The notes under the pieces are model-generated. The model ran no database searches, was not told where the DNA came from, and saw only the letters and a program-made list of their open reading frames with translations. Position numbers and translations under genes: made by a program. DNA of 64,000 bases from Zanthoxylum bungeanum. Taxonomy: Eukaryota; Streptophyta; Magnoliopsida; Sapindales; Rutaceae. The DNA is taken from NCBI GenBank assembly GCA_019454045.1, contig SKCR01006527.1, positions 62,001 through 126,000 on the forward strand. The letters are read 5' to 3'. Numbering within the stretch: position 1 is the stretch's first letter; each line of letters opens with the position of its first letter. Below are positions 12,938-38,842 of this stretch, piece after piece.

Positions 12938-13204
12938 ATGATTGGAAAGATCGGAGTTAGAGACATTATCATGGGCGAAAATGTCTTAAATGGCGCGAAC
13001 TCTCCTGATTGGAATATGACCCTCAGGATTGTCCTGGAGGCTGAGAGGATGCTCTATACGATAGAGAGACCTCTCGGGCCTAAGCCCGGAAATGAGCAGC
13101 CGCTTGAGCTTGAGCTTTGGAAGACTCATAGCAATAAAAACTCAACTGCTCAGTCCGTCATGCTCGCTGCGATGACCCCTCTCAATGATGGCAAAATTGA
13201 ATGA
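12938..13204 (+). pseudogene. Copia gag, N-terminal fragment (frameshifted)
   Basis: From the ATG at 12938 the frame encodes about 88 residues (MIGKIGVRDIIMGENVLNG...). It contains the gag-type segment DWNMTLRIVLEAERMLYTIE, then 'QSVMLAAMTPLN', where Copia gags of the UBN2/Retrotran_gag_2 family continue into a helical domain. Here the frame is lost and the rest of gag continues in the overlapping frame from 13185, probably after a small deletion. The product would be capsid/nucleocapsid; this copy cannot make the normal protein without frameshifting. Confidence 0.75.
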
Positions 13205-15391: not shown

Positions 15392-17426
15392 TGTTGGTTT
15401 CTATTTAGGTCCCAAGATCATAACAAGCATGAAAATAATGTGTGAATACATCAAATGAGATAGCGGAATACTCACATCGATCGGTTGAGACGATTGAAGA
15501 GGCAACAAAACAATTTTCTCCCCTTCAAAGTGACGCCCAAACAGTGCAGATTTTTCTGCCCACTGTTTCAGTTTTGGATCTAAGATTTGGAGCTCCAAGC
15601 TTCGTCGTTTGATTCCCGGCTCGTGGGTGAGTTTCCCTAACACCTTCGTATGTCTCCTAGGAGTGTGCTAGCACTTGGATCTTGCCATAAAATCCACATA
15701 TTCTTGCTTCCATGGACGCCATTTTCAGGCAGTGAGCAGCCCCTCAATGGGCGTGAGAAAGAAAGAAGATGGGAGAGAGAGAGAGAGTTCTCTAGGATTT
15801 TCAAATTTTCATCTAATGAAATAATAATATTCCTTACCAAAAAGTGTAGAGAACCCTTTTGTTATTCACCTTTTGGTAAAACCATTTCACTTTTACCCTA
15901 AACTTGGTAGGTGTGGGTAAATGGTTTTTTCAAAAAGCAAAACAAGGTAGTTGGATGGTAGGTACACCTACTACACATGGCCCCCACATATTTGAATTCA
16001 AAATTCAAATATCTCTACGAACATTTGCCGCGGCTCGGTTCCGTTTAATCCGATTAAACAAACTTCTGTCGTTAAATAATTAAATCTAATTTAATTAAAT
16101 TTCGATGCCTCGCAAATATATTACGAACGTCGTTTGCGACTTTAATTTCGTAATGAAATCCAATTCAAATTAATATATCCGACATATTAATTTTAGCCCA
16201 TTCGAATAAATTAAATAGAAAAATCAAATTTAACTATTAAATTCATTTTATCGATTAATTCCAAATTAATCGCGTTCTCTCTCTTTAGACGATATTTTAT
16301 CCCAGATAAAATATCTCCGTAATTAATCCTAGATTAATTTTCTCTCTCATCAAAATAATCCCAGATTAATTAAAGTGCGAGTCATACATCATCGGTGAAT
16401 CATTGGGAAGCGACCCATGAGATCCCCGGATATGTTGGCAGTAAATACGGTCGTCGGACTTTCCGAACACGTAAGTACCAAGTACTACGTTTTACCGATT
16501 CACAAGACAAGGTTGGCTTCTAGCAAAGCACCATGCCTACCCAATTCTCCGGAAATATCCTTACAGGAATGAAGGATCTGTATCAGGCGTAGTATACATC
16601 GTATAGTGCATATCGATCTAGTATCGGATGGTCACGTGCTAGGCCTGGGGCTGGAGTTGTGTCTGCCCCGTACGAAGCACATGTCGGATGTCTGGTAACT
16701 AGTCTCTATAATCGGATATACATGACCTAGTCATAATATCCCGATGGCCGCGCAGCACTTAAGAGCACTAATACCGTATCCTACGTGACACCATCTCCAC
16801 TATGACTGGAGTGATACTTCCGTCTTGACATCACACCCAATACTCTACGATTCTCAATATACCCAGTATTGGCGTACACAGAACCGGTTAAAGCCCTGGA
16901 CGACCTCAACCAAAGTATATTGATTGTCGTAAGTATTAGCGGTGCAAGTCTCAGGTTAAGACCAAATACACCTACCTTGATTTCGGACTCCCATAGACAC
17001 ACAGTCATACTACCAATGGGATTCCGATGGGGTCTATCCAGAGCGAAGCTGTTTCCTGTACCATCGGTGAAACACAACCTCCTATTACACTTGCAAGAGT
17101 ATCCAATACCCAAATATATAAGAACTATTCTGTTGTGCCCTCACAACACGCACAAGTACAATACTAGTCTTTTACGTATTTATCGATGTCCAATCTCGAT
17201 AATACTCATGACTAGGGATATTTAATGATTTATCCTACTTGGACTGATACTGTCTCATATCATTCTCCGTCCAGGAACAAATCATAGAGACCTCTCATCA
17301 TTTATACATCTAAGGTGATCTAATCACAAATGATAAGAGAGCAATCTCCTTTGTCACATAGTTAATTTGTACAACAACACCATGATCTGTACAAATAGTG
17401 ACGCTATGGGTCATAATTGTCCAACA
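15392..17426 (-). mobile_element. Solo LTR of the element's own family, inserted in its RT coding region
   Basis: The segment runs TGTTGGTTTC...CCAACA on the plus strand and is the reverse complement of the family LTR. Flanks are GTTTT (15387-15391) and GTTTA (17427-17431), four of five bases identical. It separates 'YTNQV' from 'TLVDAPEGVQPIGCKW', which are contiguous in Copia RTs. At 2035 bp it is about 100 bp longer than the other copies. Confidence 0.88.
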
Positions 17427-18890
17427 GTTTAGACACTGGTTGATGCACCAGAAGGCGTACAGCCTATTGGTTGCAAATGGGTCTTCAAGAAGAAGACCGA
17501 CATGGATGGAAACATACAAACGTACAAAGCTAGGCTTGTAGCGAAGGGGTATCGTCAACGACATGGTGTCGATTACGACGAAACTTTTTCACCCGTTGCC
17601 ATGATTAAATCCATTCGGATTATGCTTGATATTGCTGCATATTTCGATTACGAGATATGTCAGATAGACGTCAAAATCGCTTTCCTTAACGAAAACCTTT
17701 TGGAGGATGTTTATATGCAACAGCCTGACGGTTTTGTCGTACCAAAATATGCAAACAAGGTTTGCAAGTTAAATCGATCCATTTATGGATTGAAGCAAGC
17801 ATCGCGTTCTTGGAACCAACATTTTGATGAGATCATAAAAGAATATGATTTCATTCAAAACGAGGATGATCCTTGTGTATATAAGAAGGTTAGTGGGAGC
17901 GCACTGACATTCATTGTCCTTTATGTCGATGATGTATTGATTATTGGCAATGACATTCTCATGCTACAATCGGTGAAAGCTTGGCTTTCATTAAAATTCT
18001 CCATGAAAGATTTGGGAGAAGCAGCCTTTATTCTAGGAATAAAGATCTACCGGGATAGATCTAGAAAGCTGATTGGACTCTCCCAAATCACGTACATTGA
18101 TAAAGTTTTGAAGAGATTCAACATGGAACAGACTAAGAGGGGACTGTTGCCAGTGTCACATGACGTCACTCTATCTAAGGACATGTGTCTTAAAACTCAA
18201 GATGAGAGAGACAACATGAGTCAGATCACGTTCACTTCGGTAGTCGGATCAATCATGTATGTCATGATATGTATGCGACCTAATGTCTCGTATGCTTTGA
18301 GCATGTGTAGTCGATATCAGGCCGATCCAAGTGATGGTCACTGGATGGCGGTTAAGAATATCCTTAAGTATCGTAGACGAACTAAGAATGCTTTCTTAAT
18401 CTATGGAGATGGAGAACTTGAGGTAACTGGGTTTACCGATGCAAGTTTCCAAACCGATAAAGACGACTGTAAGTCGCAATCTGGGTACATATTTTGTTTG
18501 AACAACGGAGCAGTAAGCTGGAAATCTTCCAAGCAAGAGACTGTTGCTGATTCAACAACAGAAGCGGAGTATATTGCTGCAGCTGAAGCAGCAAAAGAGG
18601 CAGTTTGGATCCGTAAATTCCTAATTGGATTAGGAGTAGTTCCGTTAGCAGCTGAGCCCGTTCCATTGTATTGTGACAATAACGGGGCTATAGCGCAGGC
18701 TAAGGAACCGCGGTCTCATCAACGATCCAAGAATGTTCTTCAACGTTTCCATCTGATTCGTGAGATCATACATCGTGGCGATGTGAAGATCGAGAAGGTC
18801 GCATCAGAGGACAACATTGCAGATCCGCTGACAAAAGATATTCCTCAGCAAAAGTTTAAGCGACATGTACATAGTTCAGGTGTTAAATGA
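17427..18890 (+). pseudogene. Copia reverse transcriptase and RNase H
   Basis: After the solo LTR the RT frame resumes (…APEGVQPIGCKWVFKKKT…) and stays open to the stop at 18890; the codon at the junction reads TAG where Trp is expected. From Met 17502 there are 462 codons. RT motifs include DETFSPVA, QIDVKIAFLN, GLKQASRSWN and the catalytic LYVDDVLIIGND. RNase H shows TDASFQTD, TTEAEYIAA and YCDNNGAI, keeping the acidic residues. It ends ...ADPLTKDIPQQKF, as usual for Copia. RT and RNase H look intact but are cut off from gag, protease and integrase. Confidence 0.92.
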
Positions 18891-19666: not shown

Positions 19667-20604
19667 TGATGAGCGGAAAAATATATCAATATTTACCACC
19701 CCTTTTACTTAATATTTTGTTTAGTTTCTCGGGTTTGATGAACGTTTTGATGTGTTTTAGTTTATTTTGCAGATAAAATAATATTGGGACACAATGAAAT
19801 CATTTAGGACGAAATGTGGATCAAATAAGGGAAAAAATTGGACTTGACATATTAATTTTGGAGATTGGAAACTTGAAAGGGCGTTTTAACGAAGTGCAGT
19901 TTTAGAAATTCCAATTTTGCGCATCTGTCGTATTTTGGGTATAACGTTTTACTCTGATATCGTATTGAGCTGATTCAAGTTCCAAATTAAAGAAGAATCA
20001 AAGATCTACAACTTTGAAAGATAAAATAATTTCTAATTCTGAAGATTACATGCCCAAAATTGATGAACCATCCAGAGAAGTGTTGTGTGTAATTATTAAA
20101 GTCATTTTCAATCATTTTCAAAGCAAAAAATAAATTAATAAATAAATAATAAAAATTATCAAATCACCACCAAACATGATAAGAAATTAGTGGAGTAATT
20201 AATAATGGATTTGGTGGAGCAATTACTGGAGCAATTAGTGGAGCAATTAATAATTGATTTGGTGGATGATTTGATGGAGGTAAAATTTTGCCTAAAAATA
20301 CCAAGCCATTTCATTTGTAAATTCATACTTTCTTCTAAGGAATTCCTTAAGAATACTAAGAAGATTGTATCTTGTTTGTTTATTTACAGCTTTCAGTAAT
20401 TAATTTCCGCTTTCGCACTTTCTTTTCTTTACTTTTCAGTTTTTACTTTCCGCAATTTACTTTTACGCACAATACTTTTCTTTCTTTAATTTTCAGTTTT
20501 TACTTTTCAGTAATGAGGAGGTAACTCCCCTTTGCTGGGGTAAAATGTAAAACTTTTATTACTAATATTTAGATTAATCTCCCTTAATTATAATATATAA
20601 ACTA

Positions 20605-20768
20605 GTTAAAACCTGACTTAACGAGGATACCGCCATATTGGTCGGTTGGTAATTATTTAAATTGGTTTTAACCTGACTAAATTGGATACCGCCTGATTGG
20701 TCGGTTGGTAATTAATTATTAATTTGACTTAATCTGGATACCGCCTATATGGCTGGTTGGTAATTATC
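20605..20768. repeat. Three tandem ~60-bp repeats in the Athila-like LTR
   Basis: Each unit reads approximately 'cctgact(t)aa...ggataccgcc(t)..tggtcggttggtaatta'. Three units follow one another with small length differences. Confidence 0.75.
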
Positions 20769-21001
20769 ATGCAAAGTTAATATATTATATTAATGGAGAT
20801 ATCTAAAATAGAAGTAATAAAAGTGAATCTTTTTACCTCAGCATTTTCTTTTATTGTAATTTTACTTTATTTACTTTTCAGCAATTTACTTTCAGCAATT
20901 ACTTTTCAGCATTTAATTTTCAGTATTTAATTTTCAGTATTTTACTTTATGTCTTTTATTTTATTTAAGTTTTTTTACTACTCGTAAATATGTGTCGTAA
21001 C

Positions 21002-22425
21002 TAGGGATGGCAATTTTACCCGCCTACCCGCAAACCCGCAAAAACCCGCCCGTAATGGGTAGGGTTTGGTAAATATATTAGTGGGTATGGTGCGGGTTTG
21101 GTATTTGAAAATAGAACCCGCTGCGGGTGCGGTGCGGGTTTGGTATTTTAGTAAAATAGCCGGGTACCCGCAACGGGTACCCGCATACCCGCAAAATTTT
21201 TTTTTAATTAATCTCATGAGTAATGACTCACGTAATTGTATCCATAATCATTTTAATAATAAAAATAAATAAATGAGATGATAGAAACTAGAAAGAAGCA
21301 AAATGTTATGGGCCTATGGCCTATGGCCCGTGAGTCACTGGCTCACTGCCAGTGCTGTGCGCCTGTGCCTCATTCCTCATTTAAATTCAACAAATAAAAT
21401 TTACAAAACCCTAGCCGCAGCAACAAAAGCATCACTGCCTCACTGGTCCTCCACTCCTCCTCAATCTCCTCACGAGTCACGGGCCACTGCCACTGCCACT
21501 GGTATATCAACTCGACTCCTCAACTCCTCATATTGATGCAGCAATCTGGTCACTGCCACTGGTATATCATTTCATTTTTTTATATTTTAATGGTTAGTGC
21601 TTTTGACTTACAGAACTCAAGTTATGAGTAAATCTCTTCAGGCTCTTCATTTTTTTTTATTTTTAATGGTTAGTGCTTTACGATGTTTCTAACAGAAGTC
21701 TAAAATCCATATTAGAATCGAAATAAGACTACCTGTTCAGAGAATCAGAATGCACCTTAATCCAATTCAATAAACCAAATTCACTTGTTCGATGCCTTAG
21801 TATATCATTCCAACAACTCTCATAGATTTTTCAGTACTTTAACTACTTATTATAATACACCAAAACTTATTAATTTCTTGATCTAATTGAGGTTGGTATT
21901 TTGTCAAGCACCTAGTGCGCACAATGAATGTACAATGCTTATACTTATGATTGTTTACTCTTTGTTTGCATTAACATTACATCTCCATATACCTTACTCC
22001 CTCATCAACCAACCAAAACAGCCTCACTTCCTCTCTAACCAGAACATATTGTAATGTTACTGATTTGTTATTGGTCCATAGAAAATAAATTTTTGTCCTC
22101 TTTTATTTTATTTATTATTGTTTGTTATTTGTTATTATCATTGATGGGTTGATGATGAATCAACGAAAGAATCCTTAGATGACCAAACCCGCAAAAAATA
22201 GTTCTTGAATACAAACTCGCTAGAATCCTGAGATGACCAAACCCGCAAAAATCCGTTGGGTACCAATGCGGGTTTGGTAGTTTGTTCACATATGCGGGTG
22301 TGGGTTTGGTAATGAAAATTAAAACCCGCAGCGGGTATGGTGCGGGTTTGGTAATTTGTTCACATATGCGGGTGCGGGTTTGGTAATGGCAAACCCGCAC
22401 CAAACCCTACCCGCTGCCATCCCTA
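21002..22425. mobile_element. Non-autonomous hAT transposon
   Basis: Perfect 8-bp target duplication GTCGTAAC at 20994-21001 and 22426-22433. Terminal inverted repeat TAGGGATGGCA at the left and TGCCATCCCTA at the right, perfect over 11 bp. Both ends are rich in 'gcgggtttggta' repeats. At 1424 bp there is no transposase; the interior (for example 21303-21536) holds filler or captured DNA with no recognised product. Confidence 0.93.
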
Positions 22426-23169
22426 GTCGTAACTAAGCCAGTTATCTGGGGTTGTGATGAAATCCAATATCACCGGTTTATAAGGGGTTAAATTATAGTT
22501 TGGGTAATTTAAAGGTTTGCTTATTAAGTCTTAAGCTTAATACGTTTTGTTAATTGGCCACTAATAAGATTGATGTGGTAAATCTAAAATAAACTTGACA
22601 AATGAATTTTAGGTTTCAGCCTTAGACTTAATAGCCCACGATCTTCCTTGAGGATAAATAACCCTTTAATAGATTTCCTTACAGGATAGACATATACCTG
22701 TCGGGGGGGGGTAGCCATATGGTTAGCCATAATGGAACTTAAACTTAATGAATCCAGATAATTTGGTTGACATAGACATATGGTTCAATTGGGTTAAACT
22801 GGGTATTTGCGTCTGACCATCGACAGAGGCTGTTGCATAATTTAGTGTTCCAGGTTAGTAAACCGATTTATTACACAAACATAAAATAACCACTTCATCT
22901 TTAAAATGATATTGGAAGAAATCACAACCCTAGATAGTTTTTAATATTGAATTTTCTTAAACCTACTTTCGAAAAAATTTTATTTACTTTTTTAAATTAA
23001 AACCTCATCATTTCAAATCAATCAATCAACCTGTTAGATACTAGTAATCATTTGACCTCAAAAATTAATAGATTAGGTATTAAGTCCTCGTGGGATCGAT
23101 ACTTTTTATACTACTTGAACGATACGTACGCTTGCGTTATACGTGTGTGTTTACGCCCGGTCAAGTTTT

Positions 23170-23187
23170 TGGCGCCGTTGTCGGGGA
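23170..23187 (+). promoter_or_regulatory. Primer binding site, Athila type
   Basis: TGGCGCCGTTGTCGGGGA lies six bases after the LTR end. It differs at about one base from the TGGCGCCGTTGCCGGGGA site of Athila elements (tRNA-Asp). Confidence 0.9.
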
Positions 23188-23304: not shown

Positions 23305-24735
23305 ACCGGAAGCTTTGAACTCCGATCGCTTGACCCAGAAATTGAAAGAACCATCAGACAGTTGAGAAGGGAAAGGCGAGAAGGCCAAGAAGCAATTATT
23401 AACATGGAACCTGAACCATTGAACGTTGCACCACCGATTCCCATTCGAGACCGAACCATTCCGGTGGTTGACAGACTCATTTCTTGTATTGTACTTCCTC
23501 CATTGCCAGCAAATGCAGGTGACATCAAAACATGCATCCAGATGATTCAGCAGTCAGTACAGTTTGGGGGGAATGCAACTGAAGATCCTAATGCCCACAT
23601 CAGCAACTTCCTGGAAGTTTGCGATACTTTCAATTACAACCGAGCAGCTGAAGAAGCAATGAGACTGCGGGTTTTTCCATTTTCCCTGAAAGACAGAGCT
23701 AAAGCTTGGCTACATTCACTACCAGTAGGTTCCATCACAACTTGGAACACTCTAGCCACAAAATTCCTTGCAAAGTACTTTCCACCAGCAAAAACTGCAA
23801 AGTTGAGGAATGACATCACATCTTTGTACAACAAGATTCAGAATCCCTTTGCGAAGCTGGGAAAGATTCAAAGATTTACTCCGGAAATGTCCTCATCATG
23901 AGATCGCAAAGTGGCTACAAGTCCAAACCTTCTAATGGACTTTCTGGAATAATGAGAACCACAATTGATGCTGCTGCTGGAGGAGCTTTGATGGCAAAAG
24001 GAGAAGATCAGGCCTGGGACTTAATTGAAGAAATGGCCAACAACAATTCTTTATGGCCAACAAAAAGGAGCATGATCAAAAGAATTGCAGGAATTTATGA
24101 AGTTGGAGCCAACACAGCACTAAATCCAAGCTGGATGTGATATACAAATGTCTAGAAACACTTAGCACGCAAGTTGTGAACATCGTTGGAACCACAAGTT
24201 CACCATATGAAGGAGCACCAGAACCAATTCAACATAAAGAAACAGTGAACTACGTCAACAATTTCAACAGACAGGGGAATAATCCATATTCCAACACCTA
24301 CAACCCAGGGTGGAGGAATCATCCCAATTTTTCATGGAGCAACAATTCAGGGCAAATGAAAAAACCCACCACCCGGATTCCAGCAACAGAACAAAGGCCA
24401 GGAGCATGAAAAAGAACCAGGAATAAAGAAGTACTGGCCCAGTTGAAGAAGCAAGAAGCAAAATATGATGCTTTAGCAGCTATGGTTCAAAATCAAGTAG
24501 CATTGAATCAAAGCCATTCAGCCTCTATTAAAGCACTGGAAAATCAAATGGGACAACTGGCCAATGCTCAGAGTTACAGACCGCCAGGTACCCTTCCTAG
24601 CAACACTGAACCAAATCCGAGGAACATGGAAAAGAAGCAATGTCATGCCATCATGTTAAAAAGCGGTACTGAAATCAACAAAGATATTGGAATCAAGGCA
24701 ACAATTGAAGATATTCCAAAAGAAAAAAGCAACAG
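23305..24735 (+). pseudogene. Athila-like gag
   Basis: Retrotransposon gag domain read in at least four frames: an open piece to 23901 with the segment RVFPFSLKDRAKAWLHSLP and 'TTWNTLATKFLAKYFPPAKT', then pieces ending at 24140 and 24409 and one from 24443. These segments are typical Athila capsid sequence. Frameshifts near 23860-23900, 24137 and 24410-24440, plus a stop-rich start, prevent one product. It would have formed the virus-like particle. A second copy of its 3' part lies at 28381-29335. Confidence 0.85.
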
Positions 24736-25612
24736 ATGGAGGAGGAAAAAGAAGCAAAGGAAAAAGAACAGATCACTCCACCTCCACCTTTTCCTCAGCG
24801 TCTTCAGAAAAACAAAATGGACAAGGAGTTTGCTCGTTTCCTGGAGGTGTTCAAAAAGCTGCATATCAACATTCCATTTGCAGAAGCGTTGGAACAAATG
24901 CCCAGCTATGCCAAATTTATGAAAGACATTCTTTCACGAAAGCGGAGATTGGGAGATTACGAGACAGTAGCATTGACAAAAGAATGCAGCGCCATCATTC
25001 AGAGGAAACTTCCTCCAAAGTTGAAAGATCCTGGCAGTTTCACCATTCTATGCATCATAGGAGAACATGACTTTGGTAAGGCTTTATGTGATTTAGGTGC
25101 AAGTGTTAACTTGATGCCTTTTTCTATTTTCAGGAAACTGCAAGATTGGAGAGAACAATGCCCACTTCAGTCTCTCTACAACTTGCTGATAGAACGCTCG
25201 TATTTCCAAGAGGCGTAGTTGAGGATGTGCTGGTCAAGGTTGACAAATTCATTTTCCCAGCAGATTTTATTGTCCTTGATATGGAGGAAGACGAGACGTG
25301 CCAATCATCTGGGAGACCATTCTTGGCTACAGGTCGAACCATTATTGATGTACAAAAAGGAGAATTAACCATGAGGGTACATGACCAAGAAGTAACATTC
25401 AATGTTTTCAAGGCCATGAATTTCCCAGATGATGAAAAGAAAGAGGAATGTTTCAGACTTGATGTGATACACAGTACCATTCAGAACTCCAATGCAATGC
25501 AAAGTTCTACTGACAAACTTAAAACATGTCAATTGCCTGTGGAGCCTGAAGATAAAGCGTCTTTTGCACTGAAAAAGCCAATTCTTGCACTACAAGCAAC
25601 AAAAGAGAAAAA
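24736..25612 (+). pseudogene. Athila-like gag-protease junction and aspartic protease
   Basis: The stretch 'LHINIPFAEALEQMPSYAKF' is the conserved segment upstream of protease in Athila polyproteins. The protease core reads [18 protein letters not shown], with D-L-G in place of the retroviral D-T-G as is usual in Athila. It continues through '[20 protein letters not shown]' and '[14 protein letters not shown]' to '[19 protein letters not shown]'. A frameshift near 25140 splits the protease and another lesion disturbs 'DETCQSS', where the second copy reads an intact D-V-P-I-I-L-type stretch. After about 25560 the sequence jumps to integrase without any RT. Confidence 0.85.
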
Positions 25613-25963
25613 GTTCCACCAGCTCAACGAATTGGAGGAATTTCACAATCAGCCTTTTGAGGATGCCAAATTGTACAAAGAAAAGGCCAAGAAGAGACAG
25701 ATGAGAAGTTAGTGCGCATACAACTGGAACCAGGGCAGAAGGTACTGTTAAACAAATCAAGGGTGAAATTCTTCCCATGGAAGCCAAAATCACGGTGGTC
25801 AGGTCCATTTGTGATCACCAAGGTTTTACCAGACAGAGCCGTTGAGATACATGATCCTGACTCCAACAAAACTTTCAAGGTTAAAAACAAGCGTGTTAAG
25901 CACTACTGGGGAGAATCATTTGAGCGACAAAAAGAAAGTGTCACACTTTCAGATCCAGCATAA
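25613..25963 (+). pseudogene. C-terminal end of Athila-like integrase
   Basis: 'QLNELEEFHNQPFEDAKLYK' followed, after a frameshift near 25712, by 'LEPGQKVLLNKSRVKFFPWK' and 'RWSGPFVITKVLPDRAVEI'. This is the end of the integrase core and the C-terminal GPY-like domain of Athila integrases. The DDE catalytic residues, RNase H and RT are missing, removed by an internal deletion of several kb between about 25560 and 25613. The stop at 25963 is the normal end. The following 'gcttgcagggaggcaaccc' tract is typical of the region after Athila pol. Confidence 0.85.
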
Positions 25964-26101: not shown

Positions 26102-26455
26102 ATGGAAGAAGTTCTCGCAAATCTTCACAAGCAATTTCCTTCTCTCCCTCAAAACTCTCTGATGAAAGTCTACAAAGCTCGCTTGGAACGGATGAGACTA
26201 CTAACAATCCATGGTGTTCCTAATGACATTCGTTGGGTAATTGAAGCACGAGTCCGATTGGCAGGTGAGTCTTCTGACTCTTTTATTTCACATCTGCCTG
26301 GTTTTGGAAGAAGCACCTATGCAAAGAAACGTAGAGCTAAGCAAATGGGTGTTTGTTACAAATGTGCACGCTGGAATTGCAATACTCGTTGTCGTTCTTT
26401 AGGAATGGTGTCTGATAATCGCGAAGACAAAATTAAATCATTAGGGATGGCTTGA
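26102..26455 (+). CDS. Carlavirus-CRP-like cysteine-rich nucleic-acid-binding protein
   Basis: Intact 117-codon ORF. I place the start at the ATG at 26102 because an AG acceptor lies directly before it; the frame is open upstream to 26054 but lacks a good context. Residues 1-68 form a helical, partly basic region. Residues 69-80 read GRSTYAKKRRAK, a basic nuclear-localisation-like stretch. The cluster C85-x2-C88-x4-C93-x3-C97 (MGVCYKCARWNCNTRC) could bind one zinc. A basic stretch directly ahead of such a cluster is the hallmark of the C-terminal cysteine-rich proteins of carlaviruses (Carla_C4 family), which bind nucleic acid and, in some species, enter the nucleus and affect transcription or silencing. 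The spacing between cysteine pairs is shorter than in the viral family, so kinship is likely but distant. It lies on the element's strand after integrase, 436 bp before LOG. A generic zinc-knuckle of plant origin is the main alternative. Confidence 0.7.
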   Translation: MEEVLANLHKQFPSLPQNSLMKVYKARLERMRLLTIHGVPNDIRWVIEARVRLAGESSDSFISHLPGFGRSTYAKKRRAKQMGVCYKCARWNCNTRCRSLGMVSDNREDKIKSLGMA

Positions 26456-26502
26456 GTAAGGAGTCTTTAGATGATATATCTTAACTCTTGAGACGCATCC
26501 CA
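26450..26502 (+). repeat. GAGTAAGGAGT...TGAGACG motif, copy 1 (left of LOG)
   Basis: 'ttgagtaaggagt' followed by 'actcttgagacgcatccca'. The cysteine-rich ORF's TGA stop lies inside it. A related copy occurs at 27794-27830, so the LOG ORF sits between two direct copies. 'GTAAGG' at 26456 is also a good donor-like hexamer. Confidence 0.5.
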
Positions 26503-26648
26503 GTGGATATGTTCACATAGCCATTCGCAAATTACATACACAATTCCAAAAAGAAAGACAACAATTAAGTCTTGGGAATCTGACTCAAAAAGACCCTGTT
26601 TGCCAGTTTATAAGAAAATTGGATGGGAAGCTTGTCCCTGACGCATAG
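26475..26648 (+). other. 57-codon open frame without ATG between the two cargo ORFs
   Basis: An uninterrupted frame from 26475 to the TAG at 26646-26648 reads coding-like text such as IRKLHTQFQKERQQLSLGNL and 'DPVCQFIRKLDGKLVPDA'. It has no ATG and is in a different frame from the ORF before it. It may be a remnant of a third cargo gene or chance; I do not recognise it. Confidence 0.25.
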
Positions 26649-26749: not shown

Positions 26750-26891
26750 GATCCAGACCTTTTTACTATCACGATTTTTTACTGTTAACTAATAATCGTC
26801 TTGGAAGATACTTGTGCTATTATTACTCACCCTTTTTAGGTTTTATAAATTCAACTCATCATTGCACTTTTGAAGACATCCAGAGTAAAAC

Positions 26892-27545
26892 ATGGAAGCC
26901 ACTTCAAGAAGACGAGTTGAAAACATCTGTGTGTTTTGCGGTACTAGTGTTGGTACTAAGCCACAATACGTAGAGGCAACACATGAATTGGGTCGAGTCT
27001 TAGCTGCAAGGAATATGCACTTAGTATATGGCGGAGGCAATCTTGGACTAATGGGAATCGTTTCAAAGGCCGTACAGGAAGGAGGCAGTCACGTTTTGGG
27101 AATCATCCCAAAACCCTTGGCAGAAGCAAATCTTATTGGACCATCAAACAGAGAAGAGCTAATTGTGCCAGGTATGTCTGAACGACTGGTAGAAATGATT
27201 AACCGAGCTGATGCTTTTATTGCTTTGCCAGGTGGCTTGGGTACATTGGAGGAAATTTTTATAGTGTTATCTTGGGCGAACTTGAACATACACCAGAAAC
27301 CAATTAGGCTGTTTAACGTTGATGAATTTTATGATTTTCTTTGTGTGTTTCTTGATGATGCCCGGAGAAATGGGTTCGTGCCAAAACCTTTAAAAGAACT
27401 CCTCTTCACTGCCAGAACTGCTCCGAATCTAATTGACCAAATCTTAGCCTATGAACCACAAATTGACCCTATCATTTCAAAGATAAATTGGTCTGATGAC
27501 GATCGTGGTAAGAGGCGTTGGATTAATCTGGATCTTAACCTTTAA
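26892..27545 (+). CDS. LOG: LONELY GUY-like cytokinin riboside 5'-monophosphate phosphoribohydrolase
   Basis: Intact 217-codon, intronless ORF starting at AAAACATGG. LOG enzymes release active cytokinin bases from their riboside monophosphates, giving ribose 5-phosphate, in the cytosol. Visible signatures: N-terminal ICVFCGTSVGTKPQY (residues 12-26); Rossmann-type LVYGGGNLGLMG (44-55); HVLGIIPKPL (67-76); the Arg of 'GMSERLVEM' (R98); and the signature PGGLGTLEE (113-121), with E121 as the family's catalytic acid. Length matches plant LOGs (about 210-230 aa). Differences: the usual M-H-x-R-K reads M-S-E-R-L, and PGGYGT reads PGGLGT. Host LOG genes normally have several introns, so this copy came through RNA or an intronless source. 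It lies on the retroelement's strand between the cysteine-rich ORF and the purine-rich tract. The tail ends LDLNL, an EAR-like pattern. The enzyme family is near certain; activity is untested. Confidence 0.93.
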   Translation: MEATSRRRVENICVFCGTSVGTKPQYVEATHELGRVLAARNMHLVYGGGNLGLMGIVSKAVQEGGSHVLGIIPKPLAEANLIGPSNREELIVPGMSERLVEMINRADAFIALPGGLGTLEEIFIVLSWANLNIHQKPIRLFNVDEFYDFLCVFLDDARRNGFVPKPLKELLFTARTAPNLIDQILAYEPQIDPIISKINWSDDDRGKRRWINLDLNL

Positions 27546-27590
27546 TTTCCTGTAGAATTTCAGCTAACCATGTACTATCTTCTACTGTTT

Positions 27591-27632
27591 AAGACATTGA
27601 GGACAATGTCTCATTTAGGTTTGGGGGAGGGA
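27591..27632 (+). promoter_or_regulatory. Athila-style hairpin and polypurine tract
   Basis: GACATTGAGGACAATGTC (27593-27610) is a 7-bp stem with a four-base loop, followed by 'tttaggtttgggggaggg'. In Athila and Tat relatives this combination marks the purine tract in the 3' non-coding region. Its position right after LOG argues that LOG is part of the element and not a host gene beside it. Confidence 0.65.
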
Positions 27633-27793
27633 ATTAGTTGATCAATACCTTATTTTTAGTTTGTGTGTGTTTTTTTTTTTAGTCCAAAATTTTTCGAAAA
27701 ATACAAAAAAATTGAAATTTTTTCAAAAATTACAAAAATATTTTGCGTTTTGTGTTTTTATTTTGACTAAAAAGTTGAAATTGGTAAGAGATA

Positions 27794-27830
27794 GCTGAGT
27801 AAGGAGTTTCCACTCCTGAGACGTATCTCA
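27794..27830 (+). repeat. GAGTAAGGAGT...TGAGACG motif, copy 2 (right of LOG)
   Basis: 'gctgagtaaggagtttccactcctgagacgtatctca' in pieces: AGGAGT-TTCC-ACTCCT is itself a perfect hairpin. Compare copy 1 at 26450-26502. Confidence 0.5.
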
Positions 27831-28041
27831 AACTATTCGGAACAAGTTAATTTTTGTTTATTTCCTTTGAATTATTTAATTTGTGAATTCTCCATAATAC
27901 TGACTAAAATGGATCTTCATATGCTCAGTTGGCAGGTATTATCAACATGCATAGTAACATACAGACATGAGTTGTAATTAAAAAGTTTATAATATTTAGT
28001 GCTCTAGTTTAATTGGAGAAACATCTCAAAAAGTGATGGAG

Positions 28042-28310
28042 TAAAAAAAAAAAAAAAAAAACTTTGAGATCCGAGTTATTAAGTCTGTAAGGGTTTTTAA
28101 CACCTAGTGCCCTAAAACCAACTAGTTTGGGAGTCACTGGCCCAAGCTCGCTACATGGATCAAGGATGTTACAAAATATATATATCTGAAGTTTGAGTAA
28201 TTAAGTCCGTGGGGGTGTCTTAACACCTGGTGCCCTAAAGCCAACTGGTTTGAGAGCCACCGACCCAACATTCGCTACATAGATGGAAGATATTGTATAT
28301 ACAAAAAATC
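28042..28310 (+). repeat. Poly-A run and two ~118-bp tandem repeats in the Athila-like 3' region
   Basis: A ~19-base A run at about 28044-28061 is followed by two copies of a unit containing 'ttaacacct(a/g)gtgccctaaa(a/g)ccaact(a/g)gttt' and 'ttcgctaca', starting near 28079 and 28194. Similar text occurs in the 3' untranslated part of Athila-type elements. The stretch 27831-28041 between the features shows nothing else. Confidence 0.6.
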
Positions 28311-28380
28311 AAAAATCAAAGAAAAAAAAATCAATAAAAAAAATCAGAAAAATTATTCCATTGCTGCAAAAATGATTTAG

Positions 28381-29335
28381 AAGCAAGAAGCAAAATATGA
28401 TGCTTTAGCAGCTATGGTTCAAAAATCAAGTAGCATTGAATCAAAGCCATTCAGCCTCTATTAAAGCACTGGAAAATCAAATGGGACAACTGGCCAATGC
28501 TCAGAGTTACAGACCGCCAGGGTACCCTCCTAGCAACACTAAACCAAATCCGAGGAACATGTGAAATGAGCAATGTCATGCCATCATGTTAAAAAGCAGT
28601 ACTGAAATCAACAAAGATATTGGAATCAAGGCAACAATTGAAGATATTCCAAAAGAAACAAAACAACAGATGGAGGAAAAAGAAGCAAAGGAAAAAGAAC
28701 AGATCACTCCACCTCCACCTTTTCCTCAGCGTCTTCAGAAAAACAAAATGGACAAGGAGTTTGCTCGTCTCCTGGAGGTGTTCAAAAAGCTGCATATCAA
28801 CATTCCATTTGCAGAAGCGTTGGAACAAATGCCCAGCTATGCCAAATTTATGAAAGACATTCTTTCACGAAAGCGGAGATTGGGAGATTACGAGACAGTA
28901 GCATTGACAGAAGAATGTAGCGCTATCATATAGAGGAAATTTCCTCCAAAGTTGAAAGATCCTGACAGTTTCACCATTCCATGCATCATATGAGAACATA
29001 ACTTTGGTAAGGCTTTATGTGATTTAGGTGCAAGTGTTAACTTGATGCCTTTTTCTATTTTCAGGAAACTGCAGATTGGAGAAACAATGCCCACTTCAGT
29101 CTCTCTACAACTTGCTGATAGAACGCTCGTATTTCCAAGAGGCGTAGTTGAGGATGTGCTGGTCAAGGTTTACAAATTCATTTTCCCAGCAGATTTTATT
29201 GTCCTTGATATGGAGGAAGACGAAGACGTGCCGATCATTCTCGGTAGACCATTCTTGGCTACAGGTCGAACCATTATTGATGTACAAAAATGAGAATTAA
29301 CGATGAGGGTACAGGACCAAGAAGTAACATTCAGT
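28381..29335 (+). pseudogene. Second, partial copy of the Athila-like gag/protease region
   Basis: Starts abruptly at 'aagcaagaagcaaaatatgatgc' and repeats 24450-25400 at roughly 95% identity by eye, with its own stops (for example TAG near 28931 and TGA near 29291). It includes 'HINIPFAEALEQMPSYAKF', [14 protein letters not shown] and '[16 protein letters not shown]'. In places it is the better copy. It breaks off after 'gaagtaacattcagtg'. It indicates a second element of the same family joined here by recombination or deletion. Confidence 0.85.
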
Positions 29336-29575
29336 GTAGCCAAGAATGGAGTGAAAGAACACAACCGAGCTCAATAGAGCTTGAGCTTGTTGGAAAAGGA
29401 TAACAAAGTCTCTTTTTCTGATAAGCCAAGGCCAGAAAGGGAGCTCTAATAGAAAAAGAAAAAACTAGTGAAAGGGAGAGGGAGGGAACAAATGAAACAA
29501 AGCACCAACAAAAAAGGAAAAATAAAATAAAAGAGATGATAAAATGAAAAATAAGAAGTGAACGAAACTAGGCAA
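29336..29575. other. Unassigned spacer, purine-rich
   Basis: A/G-rich sequence ('gaaagggagagggagggaac') between the gag fragment and the CACTA-like element. No ORF or known motif. Confidence 0.5.
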
Positions 29576-33245: not shown

Positions 33246-33250
<5 letters not shown>

Positions 33251-34047
33251 ACGGCGGATTTTAGTTTCAGGGTAATATGGGAATATCACTCCCGAGGAAA
33301 TCCTCCTTCAATAGTGAATTTGTTTGGTTATGGGGGACCAAAGGCAAATTTAGCGAAAAACAGATAAACACACCAATCAACAAGAGATTTAACGTGGTTC
33401 GGTGGATTTGGATCCGACCTACGTCCACGGACACAAACGGGATGGTACTTTTATTACTTAAACACTCTTTTCGGGTCTCTTTTTGTTTTCTACAAGTCAG
33501 AGCTTGAAGATTCAGATCCCTATTTTTCATGCCTTTTACACATACTCTGCCCTCCTATTTATAATAGTGTAGAAATCATATTCCTTCTCCTATAAGAATT
33601 TCCTAGTTGAAACTATTCCCTTTTCCCATAAGGATTCCTAGTCAAAACAATTCCCTTTTCCCATAAGGATTCCTAATCAAAACTACATTTACTTTCTTTA
33701 TCATACTAGGACATGACTACTAGTTTACCCCATGAAAGTAGGATAACTTATTATCTTATCTTGTATGGATAGAATGCTTTATTTTCCCGAACATGTCTTG
33801 CCATATGCTCGGTCTTCATGTGGTCGGTCATAATAGTCTTTTGTACTGAGAATGCTGCTGTCGACCTGATAATTGCCCGGTCATCTTGAACTCAAGTGCT
33901 CGGTCACTAACCGTAAAGTTCCCGGCCTCTTACTGTTGACTCTTTAGTGGTCGGGTCGGCATTAATAATCTCGACTGAGAAGTGAATTACCTTTTTACCC
34001 CTGTCGTGCTGCTTTAAATAACATAGTGCCTGAAAACACCATCAACA
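33246..34047 (-). repeat. 3' LTR of the rearranged gypsy element
   Basis: 802 bp, TGTTGACGG...CCATCAACA on the plus strand. Its outer 660 bp recur inverted at 38182-38842, and its first ~386 bp recur in direct orientation at 37655-38040. Confidence 0.8.
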
Positions 34048-34470
34048 TTTATCCCCTAGTTCTCGGTTCCAACGAGTATGCAAGTTGGTGCCGGGAACTA
34101 TATAAAGATGGTGTGTTGATCGCCTTGCTGGTGGTCGCTCCAGAAATCACAGAGAAATTACCTTCGCCATCAACTAAGTCTTCTGTTTCTATCTTCATAT
34201 CCTCGGTTATTGGAGATGCTGATTCTATTCAGAACGATTCTCCACCTCAAAGCAAATTGCTTACTTGGGTCGTTCCATCAGGAGATGAAGTTCCTCTTTG
34301 TGTCCAAACTAGGAATGACTCCTCCTCTGTAATATCTGTACCAGAGATTTAGAGGTCTTGACCTCTAACTGATCCAATCTTGATTGTGAGGAGAAAATTT
34401 TGCCTCTGAGCTAACGATGATGTGCTCGGTGGCATGTGATCCTGTCTTGAGCTGTGAGAGATGCTCGGTC
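34048..34470 (-). promoter_or_regulatory. Polypurine tract and adjoining 3' untranslated region
   Basis: On the minus strand 'ctaggggataaa' directly precedes the LTR start TGTTGATGG, as expected of a polypurine tract (34048-34060). The remainder to the tandem array has no recognised function; a plus-strand open frame at 34026-34352 is antisense and without similarity I know. Confidence 0.6.
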
Positions 34471-35455
34471 CTGGGGGAATGTTACGTCCCCAGTTCGAAG
34501 GGCTGACTCGGTGGGACGTACCCCGACCCCGAGCTGAGAAAGACACTTGGACCTGGGGGAATGTTACGTCCCCAGACCGAAGAGGCTGACTCGGTGGGAC
34601 GTAACCTGACCTCGAGTGAAGAGAGGCACTTGGACCTGGGGGAATGTTACGTCCCCAGACCGAAGAGGTAGACTCGGTGGGACGTAACCCGACCCCGAGT
34701 GAAGAGAGGCACTTGGACCTGGGGGAATGTTACGTCCCCAGTCGGAGGGCTGACTCGGTGGGACGTACCCCGACCCCGAACTGAGAAAGACACTTGGACC
34801 TGGGGGAATGTTACGTCCCCAGTCCGAAGAGGTAGACTCGGTGGGACGTAACCCGACCCCGAGTGAAGAGAGGCACTTGGACCTGGGGGAATGTTACGTC
34901 CCCAGTCCGAAGGGCTGACTCGGTGAGACGTACCCCGACCCCGAGCTGAGAAAAACACTTGGACCTGGGGGAATGTTACGTCCCCAGTCCGAAGAGGTAG
35001 ACTCGGTGGGACGTAACCCGACCCCGAGTGAAGAGATGCACTTGGACCTGGGGGAATGTTACGTCCCCAGTCCGAAGGGCCGACTCGGTGGGACGTACCC
35101 TGACCCCGAGCTGAGAAAGACACTTGGACCTGGGGGAATGTTACGTCCCCAGTCCGAAGGGCTGACTCGGTGGGACGTACCCCGACCCCGAGCTGAGAAA
35201 GACACTTGGACCTGGGGGAATGTTACGTCCCCAGTCCGAAGGGCTGACTCGGTGGGACGTACCCCGACCCCGAGCTGAGAAAGACACTTGGACCTGGGGG
35301 AATGTTACGTCCCCAGTCCGAAGGGCTGACTCGGTGGGACGTACCCTGACCCCGAGCTGAGAAAGACACTTAGACCTGGGGGAATGTTACGTCCCCAGTC
35401 CGAAGGGCTGACTCGGTGGGACATAACCCGACCCCGAGTCGAATAACTAAGTGGC
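34471..35455. repeat. 82-bp tandem array, 12 units
   Basis: Unit starts are at about 34471, 34553, 34636, 34719, 34800, 34883, 34965, 35048, 35130, 35212, 35294 and 35376, a spacing of 80-84 bp. Each unit contains CTGGGGGAATGTTACGTCCC with CTGGGG/CCCCAG arms and a second 'gggacgtac/aaccc' segment. Two subtypes (with 'gaagaggtag' or 'gaagggctg') alternate in part of the array, hinting at a 164-bp higher-order unit. Long open frames through it are artefacts. Confidence 0.92.
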
Positions 35456-36219
35456 CTCGGCGGAACGCATCCAGCTTCGAGCCGATTAATCAGGTGGGAT
35501 TTACCCAGAAGGGAAGTGAATCAACCTTTTGAAACCCTACCGAATCTGGCATGGGCGTCCCTCTGCCAGATCGGCGAAAAACAAAAACAAGATTCTGGAA
35601 AATAAAAATAAAAGGTGGGGGTGACTTAGCACCTATCCCAAAAACGTTTTTGCAAGCATAAACAACAACATGGATGCCTCAAAACAGCGTCCCGTCTGAG
35701 GTCTCCAAAACATAATTCTGAATCTTTCAATTCGGTGTCCCGGCGAACCAGGATTCGGATCAGAAGAGCGTTTGATTGGTAAGGGCACATCCTCTACACG
35801 TCGGTTCACTGGGGAGCCTGTGTATTGTATGAGGGCTCCTCCTTACCACGCTGGAGTAGGCACACGCTACAGGGGCACAACGCATCCCCGTGCTGCGTCT
35901 CTCGCGGATCCGGATGACGAATGGATCAAAGAGTGTCCGGGATACTAAGGGCACATTCCTCCTTAAGTCCGGCATCACTGGAGCTAGCAATCGTCATGGG
36001 GGCATCATTATCCCCCGTGCTATGCTTTCCCACGGATCCATTACATCGGGTAAGTGAGGATCAAAGAGTGTTCGACACATTAAGGGCATATTCCTCCTTA
36101 TGTTCGGTAACACTGGAGTAAGCAATCGCCACGGGGGTATCATCCCTCCCCGTGCTATGCTTCTCACGGATCATATGCATCGAGTATGTCCCTGAGGACC
36201 CCGAGCCAAGAGAGATACT
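35456..36219. repeat. Second repeat family: about three ~120-bp units
   Basis: From about 35755 the sequence repeats 'gtgctatgctt...cacggatc' and 'ggatcaaagagtgt(c/t)cg...taagggca' three times (around 35760-35915, 35920-36050, 36055-36175). 35456-35755 holds no recognised feature beyond 'ggcctcggcggaac'-type text. Confidence 0.6.
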
Positions 36220-36545
36220 TGGTTCTAGGGAATGTTACGTCCCCAGTCCGAATGGCTGACTCGGTGGGACGTACCCCGATCCCGAGCTGAAAAAGGCACT
36301 TGGACTTGGGGGAATGTTACGTCCCCAGTCCAAAGAAGCCGACTCGGTGGGACGTAACCCGACCCCGAGCTAAAAGAAAGACTTGGCTCTGGGGGAATGT
36401 TACGTCCCCAGTCCAAAGAAGCCGACTCGGTGGGACGTAACCCGACCCCGAGCTGTAAGAAAGACTTGGCTCTGGGGGAATGTTACGTCCCCAGTCCAAA
36501 GAGCTGACTCGGTGGGACGTAACCCGACCCCGAGCTGAAACAAAC
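36220..36545. repeat. 82-bp tandem array, second block of four units
   Basis: Four more copies of the 34471-35455 unit begin near 36223, 36308, 36390 and 36473, separated from the main array by the ~120-bp repeat family. Confidence 0.85.
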
Positions 36546-36689
36546 ATCGATCTCGGCGATACAGAGCAGACCCGAGCCGGAAAGAAAAAAGTGGCCATGG
36601 CGGAACGAACTCCAGCCTCGAGCCGATTGTTGAAGGGGTCTCGGCGGAACGAACTCCAGCCCCGAGCCGATTGTTGAAGGGGTCTCGGC

Positions 36690-36987
36690 GCCAACTGTCC
36701 TCTGTAATGGGCGTTGAGTATGTCTCCCGTGCGAAGATGTCCGGATACTCTTTTAGACATTCTAGTAGGCTATGTCTCAGGGTTTTGTCCAAGCCTCCCC
36801 CTATTTTTATGTTTTTTTCCGGTCCGAAGAGTTCTATCCCTTCTAATTCCTCAGCCGCCGCTAGCCGGGCTATTCTGTTTGGCCGAGGACTAGGATCTCC
36901 ACTCCACTGCTTTTCCTCCGTCTTCATTCCTTTGCCGTTTTTTTGTACCCTCCTAAATGCAGAGGGTTTCTCGTGAGAGAGTTGCAA
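36690..36987 (-). pseudogene. Ty3-gypsy pol fragment (just upstream of RT)
   Basis: On the minus strand an open frame from 36987 encodes '...GLDKTLRHSLLECLKEYPDIFARE', the segment just before the RT domain in Ty3-gypsy polyproteins. The RT itself is replaced by repeats ('SWRRDPFNNRLGAG' is repeat-encoded). A minor duplication of 'cggcggaacgaactccagc' lies at 36600-36690. Confidence 0.6.
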
Positions 36988-37338
36988 AGCAGCTGCGGGC
37001 TGCCTTCTGACTCTGCATGCGATCCCGATCCCTTACCGGGTGGTGTCCCTGTATCTGTTTTGAGATTTGTCCTCCACTTGGCCATCTTTTTTTTTTTTTA
37101 ACCAAGATTTTACCTCGCTATTTGGGCTGCCATGTCGCCTTCTGTGATCTTCTTCATGTCTGTTGCGCCGGGTGCGATATTCCTTACGCCTTGGAATCTC
37201 CCGCACAGTTTCTTCGTACTCTGTGTCTCCTCTTCTAGTGTAGCGGAGACTATCTTAAGAGGAATTTGTTGAAAGTCTCTCTTCTCTTCTTCCCATGTGT
37301 CCTCTGCTTGTGTGAATCTTTTTCCACAACTATGGATT
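36988..37338 (-). other. Degenerate internal sequence of the gypsy element
   Basis: It lies between the gag start and the pol fragment on the minus strand. No continuous frame was found, and most of gag and protease appears deleted. Confidence 0.45.
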
Positions 37339-37602
37339 TTATCCCGTAAGGCCCCCTCCTCCTAGGTCCATCGTCCTCACTTGTATCCACAACCCTCTTT
37401 CCATCTGCCATCTCTCTCCTCTTTGATTAGCTCTGGTTTCAGGCTTCTCGCGGTTCCCCCCTTCCATTCTCTCCAGTAGGTCCATCATGGTTTTTAGGAG
37501 GGCCTGGCTATCCTCCATGTCCTTCCTCATGCTTTCTTCTACCTTATTCATCCAATCTGTGGCCGGATTTCCTGATGATTGGTGGTTTCCGCTTTCCGCC
37601 AT
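37339..37602 (-). pseudogene. Start of Ty3-gypsy gag
   Basis: The minus-strand ATG at 37602 lies shortly after the PBS and opens 87 codons (MAESGNHQSSGNPATDWMNK...), rich in charged residues and predicted helical (EESMRKDMEDSQALLKTMMD). Position and composition fit a gag N-terminus. It ends prematurely at 37339. Confidence 0.5.
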
Positions 37603-37636
37603 TGTCTTACTAAACGAGTTGCTTTTTGTCCAGTTC

Positions 37637-37652
37637 CCCACAGACGGCGCCA
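37637..37652 (-). promoter_or_regulatory. Primer binding site of the gypsy element
   Basis: On the minus strand TTGGCGCCGTCTGTGG follows ...GTCAACAG of the LTR end. It is of the TGGCGCCGTCTGTGGG type common in Ty3-gypsy Tat-like elements, and fixes the element's orientation. Confidence 0.8.
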
Positions 37653-37654
37653 AC

Positions 37655-38040
37655 TGTTGACGGCGGATTTTAGTTTCAGGGTAATATGGGAATATCACTC
37701 CCGAGGAAATCCTCCTTCAATAGTGAATTTGTTTGGTTATGGGGGACCAAAGGCAATTTAGCGAAAAACAGATAAACACACCAATCAACAAAGAGATTTA
37801 ACGTGATTCGGTGGATTTGGATCCGACCTACGTCCACGGACACAAACGGGATGGTACTTTTATTACTTAAACACTCTTTTCGGGTCTCTTTTTGTTTTCT
37901 ACAAGTCAGAGCTTGAAGATTCAGATCCCTTATTTTTCATGTCTTTTACACATACTCTGCCCTCCTATTTATAATAGTGTAGAAATCATATTCCTTCTCC
38001 TATAAGAATTTCCTAGTTGAAACTATTCCCTTTTCCCATA
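37655..38040 (-). repeat. 5' LTR fragment of the gypsy element
   Basis: 386 bp nearly identical to 33246-33630, stopping inside 'cccttttcccata', where the intact LTR continues 'aggattcctag'. Confidence 0.85.
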
Positions 38041-38181
38041 ACCTGGGGGAATGTTACGTCCCCAGTCCGAAGGGCTGACTCGGTGGGACGTACCCCGACC
38101 CCGAGCTGAGAAAGACACTTGGACCTGGGGGAATGTTACGTCCCCAGTCCGAAGGGCTGACTCGGTGGGACGTACCCTGAC
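38041..38181. repeat. Two 82-bp array units lodged between LTR fragments
   Basis: Two copies of the array unit, joined directly to the broken LTR on both sides. Confidence 0.88.
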
Positions 38182-38842
38182 CGAGCACTTGAGTTCAAGA
38201 TGACCGGGCAATTATCAGGTCGACAGCAGCATTCTCAGTACAAAAGACTATTATGACCGACCACATGAAGACCGAGCATATGGCAAGACATGTTCGGGAA
38301 AATAAAGCATTCTATCCATACAAGATAAGATAATAAGTTATCCTACTTTCATGGGGTAAACTAGTAAGTCAATGTCCTAGTATGATAAAGAAAGTAAAGG
38401 TAGTTTTGATTAGGAATCCTTATGGGAAAAGTGAATTGTTTTGACTAGGAATCCTTATGGGAAAAGGGAATAGTTTCAACTAGGAAATTCTTATAGGAGA
38501 AGGAATATGATTTCTACACTATTATAAATAGGAGGGCAGAGTATGTGTAAAAGGCATGAAAAATAAGGGATCTGAATCTTCAAGCTCTGACTTGTAGAAA
38601 ACAAAAAGAGACCCGAAAAGAGTGTTTAAGTAATAAAAGTATCATCCCGTTTGTGTCCGTGGACGTAGGTCGGATCCAAATCCACCGAACCACGTTAAAT
38701 CTCTTTGTTGATTGGTGTGTTTATCTGTTTTTCGCTAAATTTGCCTTTGGTCCCCCATAACCAAACAAATTCACTATTGAAGGAGGATTTCCTCGGGAGT
38801 GATATTCCCATATTACCCTGAAACTAAAATCCGCCGTCAACA
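38182..38842 (+). repeat. Inverted LTR copy forming the right end of the gypsy element
   Basis: Reverse complement of about 33246-33905, ending ...CCGCCGTCAACA before TA repeats. With 37655-38040 it forms an inverted repeat of about 386 bp per arm around a ~415-bp centre. Confidence 0.88.

Follow-up and report, generated by a model that had tools for sequence, protein, structure and literature searches.

The YgdH domain, which is found in LONELY GUY (LOG) proteins, has been noted in consensus sequences of long terminal repeat (LTR) elements from two Citrus species and, unfiltered, from Populus trichocarpa, in a passage that sets the finding in line with earlier work (Steinbauerova et al. 2011; Alvarado-Marchena et al. 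2022, PMC9289625). The same paper treats Ty3/gypsy elements of Phalaenopsis that have taken up and kept a different host-type enzyme, an AlkB-type RNA demethylase. The present analysis concerns 64,000 nucleotides of Zanthoxylum bungeanum DNA (assembly GCA_019454045.1, contig SKCR01006527.1, positions 62,001 to 126,000; hereafter the window), in which an open reading frame (ORF) of the LOG family lies within an LTR retrotransposon, preceded by an ORF for a cysteine-rich protein (CRP). Z. bungeanum belongs, like Citrus, to the Rutaceae; a matK fragment of this genome, probably a nuclear plastid copy, is nearest to Zanthoxylum calcicola (86% over 63% of the query) and points to the same genus. 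The element is of a kind that we take to be Athila-like; few plant retroelements are, to our knowledge, known to have retained a gene of host metabolism or of a hormone pathway. We put at about one in two the probability that an Athila-like lineage took up a LOG transcript and kept it, together with the CRP gene, as accessory genes, the LOG product being a phosphoribohydrolase of shifted specificity.

The occurrence of LOG in LTR elements is not first reported here, as one sentence in PMC9289625 precedes this analysis. The Citrus and Populus elements resemble ours in being Gypsy-type and in carrying a LOG-family domain but are described, in the relevant passage, by that sentence only, with no account of position, selection, pocket or CRP, whereas the Phalaenopsis elements differ in the enzyme carried and in that its activity was assayed, ours being known from sequence. 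Beyond PMC9289625, the portions of the literature searched contained no further mention of a retroelement with LOG or with a carlavirus protein, and nothing joining a carlavirus nucleic-acid-binding protein or Carla_C4 with a retrotransposon. The system described in the review PMC7264820 occupies the same place and strand, here filled by CRP and LOG; env-like features were not searched for. With type-I LOGs, the cytokinin riboside 5'-monophosphate phosphoribohydrolases (AtLOG3, structure 2a33; CgLOG, 5its), the element's protein shares the fold, the PGGxGTxxE motif and the catalytic Arg/Glu pair; unlike them, it has His97, Lys100 and Glu125 (CgLOG numbers) replaced, lacks introns and is borne by a retroelement.

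A LOG gene in many copies of one element family

The LOG-type ORF occupies positions 26892 to 27545 of the forward strand, with an ATG start, 217 intact codons, a stop and no introns. Profile searches match it to PF03641 (120.5 bits, cut-off 27) and, over its whole length, to TIGR00730 (159.6 bits, cut-off 96.35), while it falls under the threshold of the stricter equivalog NF058542 (108.9 against 300); the match to PDB entry 2a33 (At2g37210) scores 191 bits. VYGGGNLGLMG, PGGLGTLEE and Arg98 are all found, the type-I PGGxGTxxE motif is accompanied by the catalytic residues Arg98 and Glu121, and the structure model predicts the type-I LOG fold. An earlier, sequence-only reading of this DNA had claimed an intact 217-codon frame with LOG signatures, and the ORF, the two profiles and the motifs bear it out. 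One scan of a viral contig collection gave no relative of the ORF.

At least 150 intronless LOG copies were scored in the genome, the window's included (100% for the window, 90-95% for the others); the 70,245 matches of a first look are not a copy number. By hand count 136 of the 150 rows are free of stops, a fraction that is biased because rows were ranked by protein score. For this reason a second sample was chosen by the LTR end and the primer-binding site (PBS): from 40 scored rows of 399, with the window's row, one near a contig start and one further stretch left out, 37 stretches were read at the distance where LOG sits in the window-type layout. LOG is present in 23 of the 37. Fourteen have no LOG match of score 300, and four of these (L032, L039, L051 and L059) hold RNase H/integrase sequence, identified by motif and in L059 by Pfam. 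Three of the four have LOG further downstream, so that copies with pol carry LOG too; no LOG was seen in L051, whose follow-up stretch (L086) runs into another copy. The other LOG-less stretches comprise L044, with an 82-base piece of LOG, L049, L050, L062 and L058, with only gag-pro, upstream or downstream parts, L037, L040, L045 and L057, with no assignable content, and L043, with a different internal region.

LTR sequence common to both sides of LOG was found at six other places, the longest pieces being 94.7-98.0% identical. At a substitution rate of 1.3e-8 per site per year, these pieces would date the insertions to roughly 0.8-2 million years ago. The pair L013/L014 has an extra LTR piece at 89.6%, and its two LTRs may not be the ends of one insertion, since internal sequence resumes after the downstream LTR. 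Target-site duplications of 5 bp were found in three copies (ATGAG in L017/L018, CCTCT in L015/L016 and ATATG in L019/L020), and in all three GTTAGGTTTGGGGGT(G) precedes the 3' LTR. L017 and L019 share the window's layout of gag-pro, integrase remnant, CRP and LOG; L015 has a short and different internal region before LOG. The sequence TGGCGCCGTTGCCGGGGA stands directly after the 5' LTR in three of four copies inspected and is absent from L009. Paired LTRs, PBS, purine tract and target-site duplication, the marks of an LTR retrotransposon, are found in other copies, the window copy having a single LTR, and the Ty3/gypsy order of pol domains (RT_RNaseH, Integrase_H2C2, rve) is seen by Pfam in one copy, L059. 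The PBS is presumably of the Athila/Tat type, and we take the element to be Athila-like from its PBS and layout rather than from placement of reverse transcriptase (RT) or integrase on a tree.

A second element type (L013, L015 and L043) was observed with the same LTRs and other ORFs, including a zinc-knuckle-like motif seen by eye in L043. L013 and L015 have the same LTR and LOG as the window copy, but their short internal region gives almost no blastn match to that of the window.

Host LOG genes and the record of selection

To locate the host's own LOG loci, the last 67 residues of AtLOG3 served as the query. Twenty-eight host-type rows score 58.6-88.1 bits at 61-90% identity, after which scores fall to 53.4 bits or less; from there down, rows of 39-45% identity begin and run uninterrupted through the query like the element copies, one of them, on C45664, being confirmed inside an element LOG. 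At twelve host-type loci the match to AtLOG3 is interrupted near residues 35, 69-77, 111, 135 and 182 (not at all of these points in each locus), and we read the interruptions as introns. The statement of the sequence-only reading that host LOG genes bear introns therefore holds in the same genome, and uptake of an mRNA would give just such an intronless LOG in the element. As a separate observation, a host-type LOG (L091, L092; 61% identity to AtLOG3 over the last 66 residues) has a C-terminal part (AtLOG3 residues 106-198) that is unsplit, unlike that of the other host loci.

The window alone could not have told an element gene from a host LOG gene, or a processed pseudogene of one, lying by chance among repeats. 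That explanation now has next to no probability, given the at least 150 copies scored, the same flanks in those that were read, and host LOG loci that are separate, split by introns and well above the element rows in score against AtLOG3; a single-copy LOG with no LTR beside it is likewise excluded by copy number and LTR context. The many copies lying beside LTR, PBS and gag, and their lack of introns, support the view that an Athila-like Ty3/gypsy element carries LOG as an accessory gene, in line with the earlier proposal.

Relatives were taken from the best 120 of 7670 protein matches. The top ones are ORFs at 55-88% identity, many of 217 amino acids and mostly from contigs of about 1 kb, with annotated proteins of Populus, Reevesia, Paulownia, Xanthoceras and Diplodiscus, among others, further down; full-length relatives extend to 47% identity. 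Because sets of this kind probably favour intronless frames, LOGs at large are not fairly represented in the list.

Selection was examined by comparing variants seen once (private) with those in two or more copies (shared), using for LOG the 24 mapped sample copies and the window. Amino-acid-changing and silent variants (N/S) number 149/48 among private and 64/59 among shared variants (Fisher p=1.8e-5). Shared alleles lie at second and third codon positions in 25 and 62 cases, whereas private alleles are spread evenly over the two (66 and 62). The contrast persists when sharing is set at three copies (149/48 against 37/47) and is weaker without C-to-T/G-to-A changes (91/30 against 29/22, p=0.019). 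For gag (20 copies and the window) the counts are 225/80 private and 130/127 shared, and for CRP 76/24 and 51/44 (p=0.0015; 12 loci and the window, a set that is not unbiased). The protein-chosen set, which is biased, gives 36/27 and 15/31, and all 34 rows pooled give 151/54 and 76/67. These counts indicate that LOG, gag and CRP are genes of an element lineage that was under purifying selection in the past, and that copies decay after insertion. The sequence-only reading had suggested a look at dN/dS across copies; by the N/S counts, amino-acid changes are depleted among the shared variants of LOG, just as they are in gag, and the private/shared contrast excludes a processed pseudogene in neutral decay. 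A LOG cDNA caught by chance and amplified without use would sit well with the fact that most sampled copies are broken, but this depletion, and full-length relatives down to 47% identity, make such a passenger very improbable.

An altered binding pocket

The bacterial enzyme CgLOG provides the reference for the pocket. Its catalytic residues are Arg99 and Glu122, and Met96, Lys100 and Glu121 contact adenine; Met96, His97, Lys100, Glu125 and Trp129 are proposed to form the prenyl site, a set that the study gives as the same in AtLOG3, OsLOG and CpLOG (PMC4979012). Alanine at residues called crucial for AMP binding, the lysine named among them, nearly ended activity, Ser19 excepted, as the relevant part of that study has it (PMC4979012). 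The window's LOG retains the catalytic Arg98 and Glu121, together with Met95 and Trp128, but has Ser96, Leu99 and Ile124 where CgLOG has His97, Lys100 and Glu125, so that three of the five proposed prenyl-site residues are changed.

This change is widespread among relatives. Scanning was confined to the 116 of at most 260 amino acids among the best 120, four longer ones being dropped. Lysine is kept in five of the 116 and Glu125 in the same five (both are lost in the other 111), and histidine is kept in 24; Glu122 is kept in 112, and the catalytic arginine position holds Arg in 105, Gln in 10 and Cys in one. The element's own copies have the arginine in 21 of 24 and Glu122 in 22 of 24. In a tree of 79 rows (from 102 collected, near-identical ones removed; root not known), a branch with support 97/87 separates the 73 changed-pocket rows from AtLOG3, AtLOG8 and the four pocket-keeping rows. 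Seven of the 12 host loci were inspected and are canonical at the pocket residues covered: Met, His, Arg and Lys in all six that cover them, and Glu, Glu, Glu and Trp in all seven. At two host loci, L093 and L095, an additional match overlaps the first, and where it extends past an exon edge it carries other letters. The pocket change looks to be old, single and kept.

The sequence-only reading had supposed that the element makes active cytokinin, which is not supported as stated: the replacement of His, Lys and Glu, kept by host LOGs, makes cytokinin activation of the canonical kind doubtful, while the catalytic Arg/Glu pair stays. The natural inference is that the altered LOG has a shifted specificity or has lost the cytokinin reaction. 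An ordinary cytokinin-activating enzyme, releasing active hormone wherever the element is expressed, would account for the constraint on LOG and for the retention of the type-I fold, catalytic pair and PGGxGTxxE, and the whole pocket is retained in five of the 116 relatives, among which is P0098 of Xanthoceras. The change to Ser, Leu and Ile, and the loss of both Lys and Glu from 111 relatives when the host loci inspected keep them, nevertheless make us think it unlikely. A protein of LOG fold that is enzymatically inactive in most lineages, serving as a nucleotide sensor or binding a partner in the manner of SLOG proteins, is to our minds also rather improbable; the Gln and Cys at the catalytic arginine in 11 relatives suggest that catalysis may not be conserved everywhere, a point that also weighs against our favoured reading, but both catalytic residues are kept in the great majority of relatives and of the element's own copies.

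The CRP neighbour, the window copy and a possible mechanism

The CRP ORF that precedes LOG (26102 to 26648, forward strand) encodes 182 amino acids where open, as in L085, and is frameshifted in the window. PF01623 (Carla_C4; cut-off 20.9) matches the window at 26102-26455 with 28.7 bits and L085 with 23.4, and Viral_NABP was also matched. Three of the five pieces scanned (L085, L084 and the window) are above the cut-off, at 23.4-28.7 bits; a fragment in L087 reaches 16.1 and one in L044 gives no match. The best 120 of 210 CRP homologues carry PF01623, with Populus, Xanthoceras and Acer proteins among them, and an alignment of 30 CRPs shows two invariant and two nearly invariant cysteines (CxxC followed by CxxxC) and a nearly invariant KKRRAK stretch. 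The structure model is poor (pLDDT 61.8). Carlavirus CRPs act as silencing suppressors and pathogenicity determinants, according to the passages concerned (PMC8742542, PMC12172455). The element's protein shares with them a cysteine cluster that comes after a run of basic residues, and a Pfam match above the cut-off, and differs in its 182 amino acids, in being encoded by a retrotransposon and in being known here from its reading frame.

The 5' LTR of the window copy (TGATGAG...GGTCA; 19667 to 23163, forward strand, like the other parts of the element below) is about 2.07 kb long once a hAT-like insertion at 21002-22425 is subtracted. This insertion, which splits the LTR, has inverted ends TAGGGATGGC and GCCATCCCTA and an 8-base flanking repeat GTCGTAAC. 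Most aligned pieces of the LTR are 83-95% identical to the LTRs of six other copies, and its edges match those in copies with target-site duplications; no second LTR copy lies within the window. The PBS TGGCGCCGTTGTCGGGGA (23170 to 23187) is followed by gag in a broken frame (23362 to 24440), with PF03732 on the open part at 23362-23898 (E 5.3e-11) and indels relative to other copies. The region from 24443 to 25412, its ORFs open in pieces, we take from position and motifs to be late gag and protease (Pfam gave no match). An integrase C-terminal remnant at approximately 25590 to 25960, its frames read by eye, is presumed from a motif; a Pfam scan limited to 25146-25709 gave no match there. The copy has lost RT, RNase H and the integrase core, and since L009, L011, L017 and L019 align continuously or nearly so with the window across the same junction, the deletion was inherited.

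A possible 3' splice acceptor, CACCCTTTTTAG (26828 to 26839), lies 52 bases upstream of the LOG start; its A is conserved in all 21 sample copies aligned at the site and its G in 19, three of the 24 being unaligned there. Beyond LOG, a 3' non-coding region (27546 to 28372) common to other copies contains the purine tract GGTTTGGGGGAGGG (27618 to 27631), which adjoins no LTR and is internal, as the LTR-adjacent tract of complete copies lies about 1.3 kb beyond LOG. The sequence-only reading had LOG on the element's strand between integrase and this tract: strand and position downstream of the integrase C-terminus stand, but the tract does not mark the LTR. A second gag-pro fragment (28379 to 29337; 96% identical to 24447-25405, and so a repeat of most of the late gag and protease region) nearly abuts the 3' region with no LTR between, and the junction (28372-29337) is a rearranged or recombinant element end. 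Elsewhere in the window are Ty1/copia-like ORFs, identified by motif, to the left of the element (13185-18890), large inverted repeats at 33246-38842 (arms within 33246-33906 and 38178-38842, 98-100% complementary) that surround tandem repeats with a unit of 82 bases, at about 34341-36616 and 37995-38269. The Ty1/copia-like ORFs and these repeats are distinct from the LOG-bearing element.

The favoured history would run as follows. A plant LOG transcript, already spliced, would have been acquired by an Athila-like Ty3/gypsy lineage and kept between integrase and the 3' LTR, next to a CRP gene of virus type. LOG would be translated from LTR-driven, perhaps spliced, RNA, and its product, a nucleotide 5'-monophosphate phosphoribohydrolase, would have a base preference moved off the prenyl-adenine on which host LOGs act. 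By changing the pool of nucleotides or cytokinins in the host, and aided by a CRP that would bind RNA, this product may make for a better host cell for expression or transmission of the element, and pol-deleted derivatives such as the window copy would keep LOG and spread with proteins from full copies.

Several points tell against this reading. Only three of the 23 LOG copies in the LTR/PBS sample are fully open with an ATG (two more are open but start with ATA), which implies that most copies make nothing, and CRP is wholly open in one (L085) of seven copies covering its full length, although it is open over the 153 codons covered in L056 and L060. The CRP breaks fall at different places among copies, as in separate decay. 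Stops occur among shared variants (two in LOG, nine in gag and one in CRP), so that either certain breaks are common to related copies or the same mutation arose twice. The pocket argument draws on one bacterial LOG study and on comparison of residues. In elements of other species LOG was not observed directly: a gag-pro-like piece in a Xanthoceras protein is a hint only (E 0.18), too weak a match for the link to an element there, which we rejected.

The capture is nonetheless real and selected in this genome, with counterparts in Citrus and Populus according to the published notes. LOG bears a gag-like mark of selection, sits by a virus-type protein and has a pocket change that the host LOGs examined lack; both the identity of the CRP and the altered pocket were absent from the sequence-only reading. 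A bolder and distinctly tentative idea is that a virus-derived CRP of silencing-suppressor type and a captured LOG of new base specificity form a two-gene module for handling the host, selected across several eudicot families; its LOG would outlast the loss of pol in derivatives, and the module would alter the state of nucleotides or hormones in host cells that are dividing. For annotation, the LOG-like proteins of poplar, Reevesia and Paulownia on the changed-pocket side may be element-borne and not part of the cytokinin gene set. The element offers a case in which manipulation of the host's hormone or nucleotide metabolism by a retroelement can be tested directly.
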